DNA from: Candidatus Polarisedimenticolaceae bacterium
GTDB taxonomy: Bacteria > Pseudomonadota > Gammaproteobacteria > Chromatiales > Chromatiaceae
Direction of reading: 5' to 3'
NCBI GenBank assembly: GCA_021647945.1
Contig: JAKITT010000004.1
Coordinates: 1 to 64,000, forward strand
DNA: 64,000 bases
This document shows positions 24,693 to 56,297 of the stretch, in pieces. The translations under genes were made by a program, and so were the position numbers. The first letter of the stretch is position 1. Every line of letters starts with the position of its first letter. The notes under the pieces were generated by a model. That model did not search any database and was not told the origin of the DNA. It was given only the letters and a program-made list of their open reading frames with translations.

Positions 24693-25613
24693 ATGAATAA
24701 GCGAATAAGCTCCCGATTGCTGTTGGTTAGCCTGCTCTTGCTCATGGTGCAAGTTGAGGCAGGGCCGAATGGTTTTGATATCAAACAGCCCTTGGTTCCG
24801 ATCGATGAAATTCTATTAGGTGGCCCACCAAGAGATGGCATTCCAGCCATTGATGCGCCGCTTTTTATCTTGGCGAGTGAGGCAGATTTGAAGCAAGATG
24901 CTGAGGTGCTGGGGCTTGTTGTGAAGGGGGTAGCGAAGGCCTATCCCATCGCTATCCTCAACTGGCATGAGATTGTGAATGACCAAGGGGTGCTGGTGAG
25001 CTTCTGTCCACTCTGTGGAACGGGCGTCGCTTTTAGTGCAGATGTGGGTGGTGAACGGCTCGATTTTGGTGTCTCTGGACTGCTCTATAACAGTGATGTG
25101 TTGCTCTATGATCGTAAGACCCAATCACTCTGGTCTCAGCTATTGAATCAGGCAATAAGTGGCCCATTTAAAGGGACAAAATTGCAGATGCTACCGCTGA
25201 TGCATACTACGTGGTCTGCGTGGTTGAGTGCCCAGCCTGAGACGTGGGTGTTGTCACGCAATACCGGCTACGGTGCTGATTATGATCGTGACCCTTATGC
25301 GGGATATGCATCGCGGCCGGGGTTATATTTCCCAGTGGCAAAGCGTGATGCGCGTTATCCCCCCAAAGCGCGTGTGTTGGGGGTTGAGTTGAATGGCCAG
25401 TTTAAGGCCTACCCGATGGTTGAATTGGCCAAAAATGGGGCTGAGTTGGTGGATGATTTTCAAGGGAAGAGGGTGTTGGTTCGCTATGATGCTGCAAGCC
25501 GCAGTGCGGCGATCTATGATGAGCATGGGGAGTTGATGCCGGCGGTGACCGCATTTTGGTTCGCTTGGTATGCCTTTCATCCAGAGAGTGAGGTCTATAG
25601 GAGCCCTGAATAA
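24693..25613 (+). CDS. Exported DUF3179 protein
   Basis: A 306-residue protein with an N-terminal signal sequence (MNKRISSRLLLVSLLLLMVQ, likely cut after VEA). DUF3179 hallmarks follow: AYPIAILNWHEIVND, SFCPLCGTGVAF with its CxxC pair, and FGVSGLLYNSDVLLYDR, with WSQLLNQAISGP. The function of the family is unknown; the CPLCGTG segment suggests a metal or thiol site. It is a single gene preceded by an inverted repeat. Confidence 0.88.
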   Translation: MNKRISSRLLLVSLLLLMVQVEAGPNGFDIKQPLVPIDEILLGGPPRDGIPAIDAPLFILASEADLKQDAEVLGLVVKGVAKAYPIAILNWHEIVNDQGVLVSFCPLCGTGVAFSADVGGERLDFGVSGLLYNSDVLLYDRKTQSLWSQLLNQAISGPFKGTKLQMLPLMHTTWSAWLSAQPETWVLSRNTGYGADYDRDPYAGYASRPGLYFPVAKRDARYPPKARVLGVELNGQFKAYPMVELAKNGAELVDDFQGKRVLVRYDAASRSAAIYDEHGELMPAVTAFWFAWYAFHPESEVYRSPE

Positions 25614-25792
25614 GTCAGGATGTATCCACTCCAGGCACTTTATGCCCGTGTAGGGTTGCATTTATGCGACCAGCCGAACCTGCAAACGTGCAGATGAATG
25701 TGCACCTACAGCCATATTAGGCCAATGGAGTGCTTACCCCTTTTGTTTTATTCAGAGAGTTCTATACAGTAGATTGAGCTGAATGGCAGGCA

Positions 25793-25920
25793 AAAAAATA
25801 GCCCCTGGAACATCCTGTTCCGGGGGCTGGTCATCATAGCTTGGTTGGCGAAAGCTTCGATATCCTATCAAGGGCCTGTTACAGGCTTACCGTCCGTGGT
25901 TGATGACTGGGGTTATCATG
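25793..25920 (-). ncRNA. Candidate CsrA/RsmA-titrating small RNA (Rsm/Csr type)
   Basis: A minus-strand transcript of about 125 bases with three GGA motifs shown in small hairpins: ACC-ACGGAC-GGT, GATA-GGA-TATC, and the terminator stem GGAACA-GGA-TGTTCC. Two further hairpins (GCCTG-TAA-CAGGC and AGCTT...AAGCT) lie between. GGA in hairpin loops is the binding signature of CsrA/RsmA. The last stem is followed by TATTTTTTT, a clear terminator facing a region with no minus-strand gene. Upstream are a TATAAA box and an 18-base GacA-type palindrome. Identification is by architecture only; no primary-sequence match to rsmX/Y/Z or csrB is claimed. Confidence 0.55.
25799..25828 (-). terminator. Rho-independent terminator of the candidate small RNA
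   Basis: A 13-bp stem (25800-25812 with 25816-25828, one wobble) with loop GGA on the minus strand, followed by a run of T. No protein gene on that strand lies upstream within this gap. Confidence 0.8.
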
Positions 25921-25926
25921 CCAGAG

Positions 25927-25932
25927 TTTATA
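25927..25932 (-). promoter_or_regulatory. -10 element of the candidate small RNA
   Basis: TATAAA on the minus strand; the start would be near 25920. The -35 region is poor, as expected for an activator-dependent promoter. Confidence 0.4.
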
Positions 25933-25959
25933 GGGGGCAGTGTGTAGGACTTTTCCTGT

Positions 25960-25987
25960 TTCCTTGTAGGAAATTTCCTACAAGGAA
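25960..25987. promoter_or_regulatory. 28-bp perfect palindrome containing a GacA/UvrY/LetA-type box
   Basis: The whole 28 bases are self-complementary. The core TGTAGGAAATTTCCTACA (25965-25982) differs by one base per half from TGTAAG-N6-CTTACA, the GacA upstream activating sequence, and contains GAAATTTC as in LetA boxes. Its centre is about 54 bases upstream of the predicted start of the minus-strand small RNA. Confidence 0.55.
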
Positions 25988-26039: not shown

Positions 26040-26073
26040 ACCCATCCCTTATGGGTGAGCATAAGGGATGGGT
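26040..26073. repeat. 14-bp perfect hairpin in the relA upstream region
   Basis: ACCCATCCCTTATG (26040-26053) pairs exactly with 26060-26073 with a six-base loop. No T-run is present. Its role is unknown; the rest of 25988-26200 shows nothing I can name. Confidence 0.5.
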
Positions 26074-26291: not shown

Positions 26292-28496
26292 TTGGTATCA
26301 ACAACGACAAATTTACCCACAGATAGTGAGTTGGATCAGCGCAATGTTGCCACTTGGTTAGACTCAATTACGCCTGACCAGGATCAGCAGACGTTGCGGC
26401 GGCTGAAGCTGGCGTGTGATCTCGCATTGCGAACTGAGGGTGGGCAGCTACTCGCTTCGGGAGAGACGCGGGTGCGCCATGCGCTCTCGGTGGCGGATAT
26501 TCTGGCCGGCCTCAAGCTTGACTACGAAACACTGGTGGCAGCCATCCTAAATGGTGTGTTGGCACATCATGAGGTGAGCCTTGATGATATCTCGCATGAC
26601 TTTGGTAAAACCACCGCGCGCATGTTGGATGATCTGCAACGGATTAGCCTGTTGGCCGGTTTCCGGCAAGATGTTGAGATTGATGATGAGGTAAAACAGG
26701 CGGAGAACCTGCGTCGCTTGATGTTGGGTATCGCCGAAGATGTGCGTGTTGTGTTGATTGTTGTTGCTGAGCGACTACATGTGATGCGCAACGCTCGTGC
26801 GCTGCCAGACCATATCCGCCGTCCCCTGGCAAAAGAGACCCAAGAGATCTATGCGCCGCTGGCCAATCGTCTTGGTATTTGGCAGATCAAATGGGAGCTG
26901 GAGGATCTTTCGCTGCGCTTTCTAGACCCCGATGCATACAAGGAGGTGGTGAGTCTCTTGGATGGTCGTCGCTCTGAGCGAGAGGCTTATATTACCCGTG
27001 TGATTACACTGCTCAATGAAAAATTTGATGAAGCGGGAATCAATGCCGAAATTACCGGCCGACCCAAACACATCTACAGCATTTGGGGGAAAATGCAGCG
27101 TAAAGGGGTCGGTTTCGAGGAGATTTTTGATCTACGTGCCGTGCGCGTATTGGTTGAAGATGTGGCCGACTGCTACACCGTTTTAGGTATTGTGCATGGC
27201 CTATGGCGCCATATTCCCGGTGAGTTTGATGACTATATTGCCACCCCGAAGAATAATATGTATCAGTCAATCCACACAGCTGTGATTGGCCCCGATGAGA
27301 AGACATTTGAGGTGCAGGTGCGCACCCACGATATGCACCATCACGCCGAGTTGGGTGTGGCCGCACACTGGCGATATAAAGAGAATAAACATCACGATGC
27401 TGATTTTGAGCGTCGGGTGGTCTGGATGCGTCACTGGTTGGAGTTTAAGGAGGATGACTCTGTTTTAGATGACTCTGTTGATGAGCTGAAGGGGGAGCTG
27501 GAGTCGAGCCTGATCTATGTCTTGACGCCAAAGGGCAAAGTGGTTGAACTGCCCGAGGGGGCGACCGCTCTCGATTTTGCCTATGCCGTACACACTGAAG
27601 TGGGGCATTGTTGTCGTGGTGCGCGAGTGAATGGGCAGATGGTGCAGCTGACAAAACCGTTGCGCAGTGGTGAAACTATTGAGGTGCTGACCTCGAAATC
27701 TGGTACACCCAGCCGTGATTGGCTCAGTTCCCATCTGAACTATCTAAAGACCCGTCGGGCGCGTAACCGGGTTCGCCAATGGTTTAAACAGCAGGATTAT
27801 GAGGTGCATCTTGACTCTGGGCGTAAGGGATTGGAGCGTGAAATAGTACGTCTTGGTATTAGTGATCGCCCTGATCTCGTCGCGTTGGCAGAGCGGTTCA
27901 ATTTCAAATCGGCCGATGACCTGCTGGCGGCTATTGGTCGAGGGGATATCTCATCACTCAAGATTGCGGCCGCAGGTGGTGGGGTTAAACAGGCGGTGCC
28001 AAAGAGGCGAGTGCCGCCCGCTGACGTGCGTCCCATATCGGGTAAGGGGGAGGTGATTGTGCAGGGGGTGAGTGATCTGATGACCCATGTGGCAGGCTGT
28101 TGTAAACCCGTCCCCTATGATCCAATTATCGGTTTTATTACGCGTGGTAGAGGCGTCACCGTACATCGGCGTGACTGTAGCAATGTCTCTGGCTCGGTGT
28201 TGGCTGAACCAGAGCGGCTTGTCGATGTGACTTGGGGGGCACACGCTTCTGACTCAAGCTATGCCGTGGATGTAAGAGTTTTAGCCAATGATCGACGGGG
28301 TTTGCTGAGTGAAATATCAGCGCTGTATACTGCTGAAAGGGTGGATGTTATGGGTGTTAATACGGCCTCCAATCCACTTAAAGAGACCGCCTCCATGATG
28401 TTTACCATCCAGGTGATCGATATCACTCAGCTGAGTCGAATCTTGAATAAGATTGCTCAGATTCCTGATGTCACTGAGGTAAAACGGCAGATTTAA
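26292..28496 (+). CDS. relA: GTP pyrophosphokinase RelA
   Basis: Makes (p)ppGpp on starved ribosomes. The 734 residues contain an N-terminal pseudo-hydrolase domain in which the HD pair is lost (ILNGVLAHHE instead of ILHDVIED), as in RelA rather than SpoT. The synthetase follows (GRPKHIYSIWGKMQRKG, FDLRAVRV, NNMYQSIHTAVIGP), then a TGS domain (YVLTPKGKVVELPEGATALD), zinc-finger region (HVAGCCKPVPYD) and C-terminal ACT domain. Start is TTG at 26292 after GGAGTGG. It stands alone, beside the candidate Csr-type RNA. Confidence 0.95.
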   Translation: MVSTTTNLPTDSELDQRNVATWLDSITPDQDQQTLRRLKLACDLALRTEGGQLLASGETRVRHALSVADILAGLKLDYETLVAAILNGVLAHHEVSLDDISHDFGKTTARMLDDLQRISLLAGFRQDVEIDDEVKQAENLRRLMLGIAEDVRVVLIVVAERLHVMRNARALPDHIRRPLAKETQEIYAPLANRLGIWQIKWELEDLSLRFLDPDAYKEVVSLLDGRRSEREAYITRVITLLNEKFDEAGINAEITGRPKHIYSIWGKMQRKGVGFEEIFDLRAVRVLVEDVADCYTVLGIVHGLWRHIPGEFDDYIATPKNNMYQSIHTAVIGPDEKTFEVQVRTHDMHHHAELGVAAHWRYKENKHHDADFERRVVWMRHWLEFKEDDSVLDDSVDELKGELESSLIYVLTPKGKVVELPEGATALDFAYAVHTEVGHCCRGARVNGQMVQLTKPLRSGETIEVLTSKSGTPSRDWLSSHLNYLKTRRARNRVRQWFKQQDYEVHLDSGRKGLEREIVRLGISDRPDLVALAERFNFKSADDLLAAIGRGDISSLKIAAAGGGVKQAVPKRRVPPADVRPISGKGEVIVQGVSDLMTHVAGCCKPVPYDPIIGFITRGRGVTVHRRDCSNVSGSVLAEPERLVDVTWGAHASDSSYAVDVRVLANDRRGLLSEISALYTAERVDVMGVNTASNPLKETASMMFTIQVIDITQLSRILNKIAQIPDVTEVKRQI

Positions 28497-50896: not shown

Positions 50897-52918
50897 TCAA
50901 CGCCTCCGTCTCAGAGGCTGTTCCCTTACCGGCTTTTTCACTCTACTGGGCCGAACTTTTGTGGGCTTTCGGCTCGGTGCTTTGCTTTGGCCCGGCTGCC
51001 AATTTGGGATCAGGTGTCGTTTGCCATTACCAATTAGATCGGCTCGCCCCATGCTTTCAAGCGCTTCGCGCAGCAGTGGCCAGTTCTCTGGATCGTGATA
51101 GCGCAAGAAGGCTTTGTGCAGTCGTCGCTGGCGGATCCCTTTGGCTGAAAAAACTCGTTCGCTGCCGATTTTTTTCAGCGGGTTGAAGTCGCTGTAGTAC
51201 ATGTCTGATGCGACGGCCAGTGGTGTCGGTAGGAAAGCCTGCACCTGATCCAGGCGGAATTTATTCTTCTTCAGCCAAAGGGCCAGATTGAGCATATCTT
51301 TATCACTGGTGCCGGGATGGGCGGCGATAAAGTAGGGGATCAGGTACTGCTCTTTACCCGCCTCTTTTGAGTAGTGCTCAAACATGCGTTTGAAACGGTC
51401 ATAGACCTCGATACCTGGTTTCATCATCTTGTTGAGCGGGCTCTCTTCGGTATGTTCCGGAGCGATTTTTAGATAGCCACCGACATGGTGAGTGACCAAC
51501 TCTTTAACATAAGCGGGGGAACGTACAGCGAGGTCGTAACGTACCCCAGAGGCGATGAAGACCCGTTTTACCCCCGGCAGCTGACGTGATTTTTGGTAGA
51601 GCTGGATCAGCGGGTCGTGGCTGGTCTCCATATATTTGCAGATGTCGGGGAAGATGCAGGAGGGACGACGACATACCGCTTCGACAGCTAGGTCTTTGCA
51701 TCGTTGGCGATACATGTTGGCAGTTGGGCCACCCAGGTCTGAGATGTTGCCGGTAAAGCCAGGCACGGTGTCGCGGATGGTCTCAATCTCATCCAAAATT
51801 GATTGCTCTGAACGACTCTGGATGATGCGCCCCTCATGTTCGGTAATTGAGCAGAAGGTGCAGCCACCAAAACAGCCACGCATGATGTTGATAGAGAAGC
51901 GGATCATCTCCCAGGCGGGGATCTTCTTCTGGCCATAACTGGGGTGTGGTCGCCGGGTGTAAGGGAAGGCGTAGAGTGGATCAAGCTCCTTGGTGGTCAG
52001 TGGGATCGGGGGTGGATTGACCCAGACATCCCGTTTGCCATGTTGCTGTACCAGTGGGCGAGCGTTGCCTGGGTTGGTCTCCAGATGGAACATGCGCGAT
52101 GAGTGGGCGTAGAGTGTTTTATCGTTGAGCACCTGATCATAGGAGGGGAGCCGAATGACCGCAGGCCGGTCGCCATCCGCATGGCGGTTTTGCTTGCTCT
52201 GTGCAGACTCAATGGTGGAGGCATCCAGCTCACACCACTCTTCAGGTGTCTGCTGGCGCATGAAGGCGGTGCCGCGCACATCGGTGATTTCATTGACGGG
52301 GGTGTTTGCTGCAAGACGATGGGCGACCTCAACCAGCGCCCGCTCGGCGTTGCCGTAGATCAGCAGATCGGCTTTCGAATCTGGCAAAATAGAGCGCCGC
52401 ACCTTATCTGACCAGTAGTCGTAGTGAGCAATCCGGCGCAGACTCGCCTCAATGCCTCCGACGATGATCGGCACCCCTTTATAGGCCTCCCGTGCACGCT
52501 GTGCATAGACCACAACTGAGCGGTCGGGGCGTTTTCCACCCTCTCCATCGGGTGTATAGGCATCATCGCTGCGAATGCGTCGATCTGCCGTGTAGCGGTT
52601 GACCATCGAGTCCATATTGCCAGCGGTAATGCCATAGAAGAGATTGGGTCTACCCAGGATGCGGAAGGCATCGGCTGATTGCCAATCTGGCTGCGCAATA
52701 ATGCCAACACGAAAACCCTGCGCCTCTAACAAACGTCCGACCAGCGCCATGCCAAAGCTAGGGTGGTCGACATAGGCATCACCGGTTACCAGAATGATAT
52801 CGCAGCTATCCCAGCCCAGCGTTTCCATCTCATCGCGAGACATTGGCAGTACGGGGGCGGCGCCGAAACGTTTGGCCCAATATTGGCGGTAGGAGAAGAG
52901 TTCTGTGATGATGTCCAT
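50897..52918 (-). CDS. YgiQ family radical SAM protein
   Basis: A 673-residue protein with an N-terminal UPF0313 domain and a radical SAM core: [18 protein letters not shown], the CxxxCxxC cluster motif (about 345). Other family landmarks are [41 protein letters not shown], and [15 protein letters not shown], with a basic C-terminal tail. The reaction catalysed is not known with confidence. It is convergent with the RAYT gene. Confidence 0.95.
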
Positions 52919-55816: not shown

Positions 55817-56164
55817 GGGAGTCAGCCAGACAGTCGCCATTTCGGTTTACCGGGGTGGAGGAAAGTCCGGGCTCCATAGGGCAGAGTGCCAGGTAACGCC
55901 TGGGGGGTGCAAACCTACGGAAAGTGCCACAGAAAATATACCGCCTAAGCCCGCAAGGGCCGGTAAGGGTGAAATGGTGCGGTAAGAGCGCACCGCGCTG
56001 CTGGCAACAGTAGCGGCACGGTAAACCCCACTCGGAGCAAGACCAAATAGAGGAGCACAGGCGCGGCCCGCGCTGTTCCTGGGTAGGTTGCTTGAGGTGT
56101 GCGGCGACGCACATCCTAGATGAATGACTGTCCACGACAGAACCCGGCTTATCGGCTGACTCCC
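55817..56164 (+). ncRNA. rnpB: RNase P catalytic RNA (type A)
   Basis: The 348-base RNA that cuts tRNA precursors. The ends pair perfectly as helix P1 (GGGAGTCAGCC with GGCTGACTCCC). Conserved blocks are GAGGAAAGTCCGGGCTCC, CAGGGTGCCAGGTAACGCCT-like sequence, GGTAAGGGTGAAATGGTGCG, TAAGAGCGCACCGCG, and ATGAATGACTGTCCACGACA with CAGAACCCGGCTTATCG at the 3' end. It is slightly shorter than E. coli (377), mainly in the P3 region. The apparent minus-strand reading frame over it is not a gene. Confidence 0.98.
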
Positions 56165-56297
56165 ACCTTCCTTCTTAATAAGTTACATTAACTGTGCGTC
56201 CTATTCGACTGTTTCTGTAGAGCTATTTGAGTTCATTTCCCTCTCTTTTGTCCCCGTTGTAACTCATTGACCCAAAAGGTTTTTTTCTGTTTTTGTG

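Follow-up and report, generated by a model that had tools for sequence, protein, structure and literature searches.

The window (the whole stretch of 64,000 nt that was analysed, part of contig C15 of a 3.43-Mb draft genome) very probably contains a real, conserved Rsm/Csr-type small RNA (sRNA) gene beside relA, whose product is a predicted CsrA sponge. Control of this sRNA by GacA is likely, based on site similarity. By sequence comparison, the RNA family is new and uncatalogued in Rfam 15, of a known functional kind, and present in about half of the order's genomes.

The predicted sRNA element in the window

In minus-strand order, the interval between relA and the DUF3179 gene contains a palindrome, TATAAA, short GGA hairpin candidates and a strong terminator with CAGGAUG in its loop. 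The sRNA and its control region reach up to 25982 on the minus strand. The features are:

24693–25613, plus strand: gene of a DUF3179 protein, convergent neighbour, not seen beside the RNA in other genera
25792–25907, minus strand: predicted Rsm/Csr-type small RNA of ~116 nt, predicted +1 near 25907
25800–25828, minus strand: terminator hairpin with CAGGAUG (GGA 3) in the loop, then A and U7; unpaired probability 1.00
25839–25849, minus strand: GCCAACCAAGC, the family's most conserved stretch, no CsrA site; near-invariant columns in alignments A4 and A6
25863–25865, minus strand: GGA 2 in the near-palindrome CUUGAUAGGAUAUCGAAG; unpaired probability 0.64 (0.99 in G001)
25893–25895, minus strand: GGA 1 (CACGGACG) in the loop of a 3-bp hairpin; unpaired probability 0.89
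25915–25923, minus strand: extended -10 TGGCATGAT, as in the family logo; identical in G001
25927–25932, minus strand: TATAAA, present, not the conserved promoter element
25943–25960, minus strand: degenerate second site AACAGGAAAAGTCCTACA, 22 bp downstream of site 1, adjoining the -35 region
25965–25982, minus strand: GacA/UvrY/LetA-like upstream activating site 1, TGTAGGAAATTTCCTACA, as in the family box and logo
26292–28496, plus strand: relA, divergent neighbour (Pfam RelA_SpoT, HD_4, TGS, ACT_4)

The first-pass annotation had reported a minus-strand terminator without a preceding gene. It was found at 25792–25828 (AGCCCCCGGAACAGGATGTTCCAGGGGCT, then A and T7), and no minus-strand gene lies before the RNA. 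All three frames of the RNA hold stops or nothing plausible as a protein. The RNA is an independent intergenic gene with an intrinsic terminator and without a coding frame. The reported three looped GGA, one of them in the terminator, were also recovered: at CACGGACG, GATAGGATATC and ACAGGATGT the GGA is either looped or largely unpaired. The stem of the terminator hides a fourth. With four GGA, three of which are accessible (one of these only partly open), the window copy is a reduced family member. Its folding was better than that of shuffled sequences (z -3.3, reached by 0 of 200). Simple scans listed neither the extended -10 nor the palindrome, which is a limit of such scans.

The best NCBIfam model of relA is the RelA-type GTP diphosphokinase, with a score under the equivalog cut-off. 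Compared with its counterparts in Sedimenticola and Ca. Thiodiazotropha, this relA shows 58–60% identity. The stretch that separates the RNA from relA holds a perfect stem of 14 bp at 26040–26073, which has a 6-base loop and no U-run; it was not seen at the loci of other genomes. Elsewhere in the window, positions 55818–56167 encode a class A RNase P RNA (Rfam RF00010).

Search for the RNA family

BLASTN among 55 relatives gave a full-length match only in the same-genus copy (75% identity, the only other genome of the genus searched), where the element adjoins relA as well. As full-length matches were confined to the genus, a covariance model was needed. A search of relA neighbourhoods for GCCAACCAA identified four Thiodiazotropha copies with a similar box, located 134–138 bp upstream of this motif (133 bp in the window). 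Model R1 was built from six sequences (A2), the window RNA and five relatives, and matched 52 of 194 genomes of the GTDB family. Within the order, the refined model R2 matched 99 of 210 genomes, belonging to 32 of 61 genera, and gave no match in the other 111 genomes. The window RNA scored 66 bits with R1 and E=2.3e-4 with R2, partly by construction, as the window sequence is a seed of both models.

In a class-wide draw of 369 genomes, R2 found only genomes of the same family and one false match. The latter (G309), a weak match outside the family, was rejected because it is without the box, has few GGA and looks like coding DNA. Matches L155, L180, L181 and L186 were false on inspection. For L182 (Thiococcus pfennigii), the closing stem, the GGA sites and the terminator suggest a genuine member; its box is unclear. 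Named carriers are Sedimenticola hydrogenitrophicus, a Sedimenticola sp., the Solemya velesiana gill symbiont and Ca. Thiodiazotropha. The Csr/Rsm models of Rfam 15 were matched neither by the window RNA nor by the scanned loci of relatives, at gathering thresholds and at lax E-values. Plasmid records held no match.

Thiodiazotropha genomes mostly carry two to four copies; RsmX is multi-copy as well in some Pseudomonas (PMC4950607). In some Thiodiazotropha genomes, three tandem RNA copies lie by typA (L134, L135), and most of these have the box ~22 bp further upstream than other members.

A set of 57 distinct RNAs was extracted, chosen by closing-stem letters, CCAACC motif, length and at least two GGA alone. 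The box and the 3' hairpin were not used in this choice and hence serve as tests. The box NNNN[AG][GA]N6[CT][CT]TAC was found at -78 to -70 in 51 of the 57 members, compared with 1% when the upstream sequences were shuffled. In all 57, the 3' stretch contained GGA and had a hairpin with a stability better than -8 kcal/mol. The window RNA shows the traits that define the family: the covarying GUC...GAC closing stem, GCCAACCAAGC, a terminator with GGA at the 3' end and a box starting near -73.

The combination of upstream activating site, at least three GGA and a T-run was absent from 3000 dinucleotide shuffles of the intergenic region; the upstream site alone occurred once. A chance palindrome next to an orphan terminator would fit the whole-genome count of the single box, which is little commoner than the control pattern at ≤1 mismatch (15 versus 9 sites). 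However, the shuffles, together with conservation, covariation and near-fixed spacing in 57 relatives, make coincidence extremely improbable, and the comparative data already refute it.

RNA structure, GGA sites and a conserved stretch

The closing stem around the 5' part varies in sequence and keeps its pairing. It is GUCAUC/GAUGAC in the window (GUCAUCA/UGAUGAC), GUCGCA/UGCGAC in Thiodiazotropha and, in other members, either GUCGCC/GGCGAC or GUCGUC/GACGAC. In a set of 61 distinct sequences, pairing held in 98.9% of cells and double changes occurred in five of six pairs; the underlying alignment was fitted to a model already containing the stem and is somewhat favourable to it. The covariation score was reached by 0 of 500 shuffles and was lost when the partners were slid. 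Whole-RNA alignment by MAFFT misaligned the 3' side of the closing stem, and core-only and model-fitted alignments were used instead.

Family RNAs contained a mean of 5.8 GGA (2.4 in shuffles), and most relatives hold five to six. The consensus of the sites is CAnGGA(U/C)G. It resembles both the CsrA SELEX consensus RUACARGGAUGU and the CsrB repeat CAGGA(U/A/C)G (PMC7652899). Several sites of the CAnGGAnG type are looped or single-stranded; this feature is weaker in the window copy than in its relatives.

The most conserved stretch of the family, UUUGCCAACCAAGC, is no CsrA site and was kept better than the GGA sites across some 30 genera. A dual function of the family is conceivable, with this stretch pairing with an mRNA or binding a second protein, and we put it forward tentatively. 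Another reading holds that the RNA works mainly through GCCAACCAAGC, by base-pairing or protein-binding, and that CsrA binding is secondary. No GGA site is conserved as well as this stretch, and GGA are few in the window copy. Nevertheless, the GGA excess and the site consensus hold family-wide, and the promoter is of the kind driving Rsm RNAs, so we regard this reading as quite unlikely. The role as a CsrA sponge is preferred.

Promoter and upstream sites

The TGTAGG-N6-CCTACA palindrome described earlier is present at 25965–25982, as the centre of a perfect 28-bp palindrome (25960–25987). Its position had to be revised. The extended -10 TGGCATGAT at 25915–25923 places the +1 near 25907; the centre of the palindrome is then near -66, not -54. 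Moreover, a second site follows the palindrome at a spacing of 22 bp. The TATAAA box proposed for this promoter exists at 25927–25932, but the conserved promoter element is the extended -10.

Aligning 44 non-redundant promoters on the box gave the consensus TGTMRGAAAWTTCCTACA, followed exactly 22 bp downstream by a weaker second copy, which adjoins the -35 region. This second site appears in the family logo at G28, A29 and C39-A40. Aligning 49 promoters on the RNA gave the extended -10 TGnCAnnnT, with TG at -15/-14, A at -11 and T at -7 relative to the RNA 5' end. The search pattern predetermined some box positions, but neither the second site nor the -10. The tandem-box pattern occurred four times in the whole genome and the control pattern not at all.

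Two tandem boxes in this genome are side observations. At L008 (G000:C85:1327-1366, minus strand), a perfect tandem box is followed neither by an evident GGA-rich RNA with terminator nor by a nearby gene start. L190 (G000:C28:567-606, minus strand) is weaker, with two mismatches, and lies upstream of a gene for a small secreted-looking protein. The ribosome site GGAGG of this gene is in a possible hairpin loop (GGCCACGGAGGGCC), and the gene is perhaps a CsrA target.

E. coli UvrY binds an 18-nt palindrome (PMC4682653), and the box of the window and the family resembles its site TGTGAGAGATCTCTTACA. In csrB, an additional half-site lies 5 bp downstream, and UvrY crosslinks near -35 (PMC4682653). 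The original reading of the palindrome as a GacA/UvrY/LetA-like site is supported at the sequence level by this resemblance and by the frequency of the box in the family.

A CsrA-sponge RNA could also be driven by another response regulator of the LuxR/NarL type. Response regulators are numerous in the genome, several of them with the same domain type, and TGTMRGAAAWTTCCTACA differs from TGTAAG-N6-CTTACA, mainly by C for T at the fourteenth position. However, the box is close to known GacA/UvrY sites, csrB/csrC-type RNA genes stand out by far as the strongest of the UvrY targets (PMC4682653), and the genome has a gacA ortholog close to uvrC. We therefore consider another regulator unlikely and GacA the likely one.

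Csr/Gac pathway and proposed mechanism

The genome contains csrA, gacA and a gacS/barA-type gene. There are two csrA genes, and both proteins score above curated cut-offs. The gacA ortholog lies two genes from uvrC; its best NCBIfam model is UvrY/SirA/GacA (262/280 bits, below the equivalog cut-off). A hybrid kinase (681/890 bits, below the equivalog cut-off) has BarA as its best and LetS as its second-best model. GacA and the kinase are clear best matches. Together with conservation and covariation, these genes bear out the first-pass proposal of an unannotated Rsm/Csr-type sRNA.

Sequence and comparative analysis show how the element is organised, that it is conserved, that its closing stem covaries, that its sites have a CsrA-like consensus and that the pathway proteins are encoded. 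From these we infer transcription of the RNA, binding of GacA and CsrA and an effect on targets. The BarA/GacS-like kinase would phosphorylate GacA. GacA-P would bind the palindrome and the weaker site 22 bp downstream, probably cooperatively, and recruit RNA polymerase to the extended -10 promoter. The transcript would start near 25907 and end at the terminator. With about three accessible GGA sites, it would bind CsrA dimers, and this capture would release CsrA-controlled mRNAs.

The first-pass annotation had named better csr/rsm genes in the genome, together with an unconserved element, as counter-evidence. Conservation of the element speaks against this, and the genome yielded only a single other Rsm-like candidate, which looks unrelated. 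This candidate (L189, minus strand from ~1501; G000:C160, ~51,690-51,832) lies between prmC and a HigA-like gene. It has tandem boxes 22 bp apart, followed by ~120 nt with GAACAAGGAUGUUC, CAAGGACGG and a terminator with AUAGGAUU, and is without the GCCAACCAAGC motif. In another family of the class (G047), the locus L005 (minus strand from ~805) has the box TGTAGGATATTTCCTACA and an RNA with ACAGGAUGU, UAGGAUUA and CACGGAUG. It lies between typA and dtd and is likewise without the GCCAACCAAGC motif; the typA-dtd interval may be the ancestral position.

Position beside relA

Within the genus of the window, the RNA is positioned directly before relA. In genus g21 and in Thiodiazotropha (genus g8, identified with the named loci by sequence), its neighbour is the DUF1015-relA pair. 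In many genera it is found in the typA-dtd interval and in others next to proB, each with its own palindrome; the box accompanies the RNA among three unrelated loci. Thiodiazotropha carries the RNA at relA as well as at typA. No such RNA was found at the typA position in the genome of the window.

The earlier proposal that the position beside relA links the stringent response with carbon-storage control is not upheld. As the same RNA occurs at typA-dtd or proB elsewhere, the adjacency is local gene order and no evidence of a functional link. From E. coli, a link between Csr and the stringent response is already familiar (PMC7652899). In Legionella, RsmY/Z are ppGpp-independent (PMC5928044).

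An exclusive role of the palindrome at relA was rejected, because the box travels with the RNA. A related reading takes the palindrome as a relA control site and the 'RNA' as the leader or 3' end of a neighbouring transcript. The palindrome does lie within the divergent region before relA. Against this, the same RNA and box occur at typA-dtd or proB in other genera, the box-to-RNA distance is kept, no minus-strand gene lies ahead, and the RNA frames hold stops or no plausible protein. This reading is very improbable, and an independent sRNA gene is preferred.

Comparison with known systems

The RNA resembles Pseudomonas RsmX/RsmY/RsmZ as a short RNA with several looped GGA, an intrinsic terminator and an upstream 18-bp GacA site (TGTAAG-N6-CTTACA), located at about -75 in rsmY (PMC4950607). 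The window family differs in its 22-bp tandem site, the closing stem around the 5' part, GCCAACCAAGC and its genomic positions, and it has no Rfam match.

CsrB and CsrC are longer than the RNAs of the window family and contain many more GGA. The E. coli RNAs resemble the family in their CAGGAUG-type repeats and in a UvrY palindrome with an extra half-site and crosslinking near -35 (PMC4682653). In contrast, the csrB palindrome is centred at -183/-182, and the window family is without an Rfam match.

For Legionella RsmY/RsmZ and LetA, the likeness is that LetS is the second-best NCBIfam model of the genome's kinase. The A/T-rich centre of the palindrome, AAATTT, resembles the Legionella LetA site, which we take to be TNAGAAATTTCTNA.

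No CsrA-antagonist RNA of the order's sulfur bacteria and symbionts was found in Rfam 15 or in the open-access literature searched. In Ca. Thiodiazotropha endolucinida, csrA tops the expressed annotated genes at about 80,000 TPM (PMC13137333). Accordingly, the clam symbionts appear to rely on Csr control, and its off-switch had not previously been pointed out. If the tentative dual function is true, the RNA would couple the Csr switch to another target. With the family model, existing symbiont transcriptomes can be searched for a defined gene.
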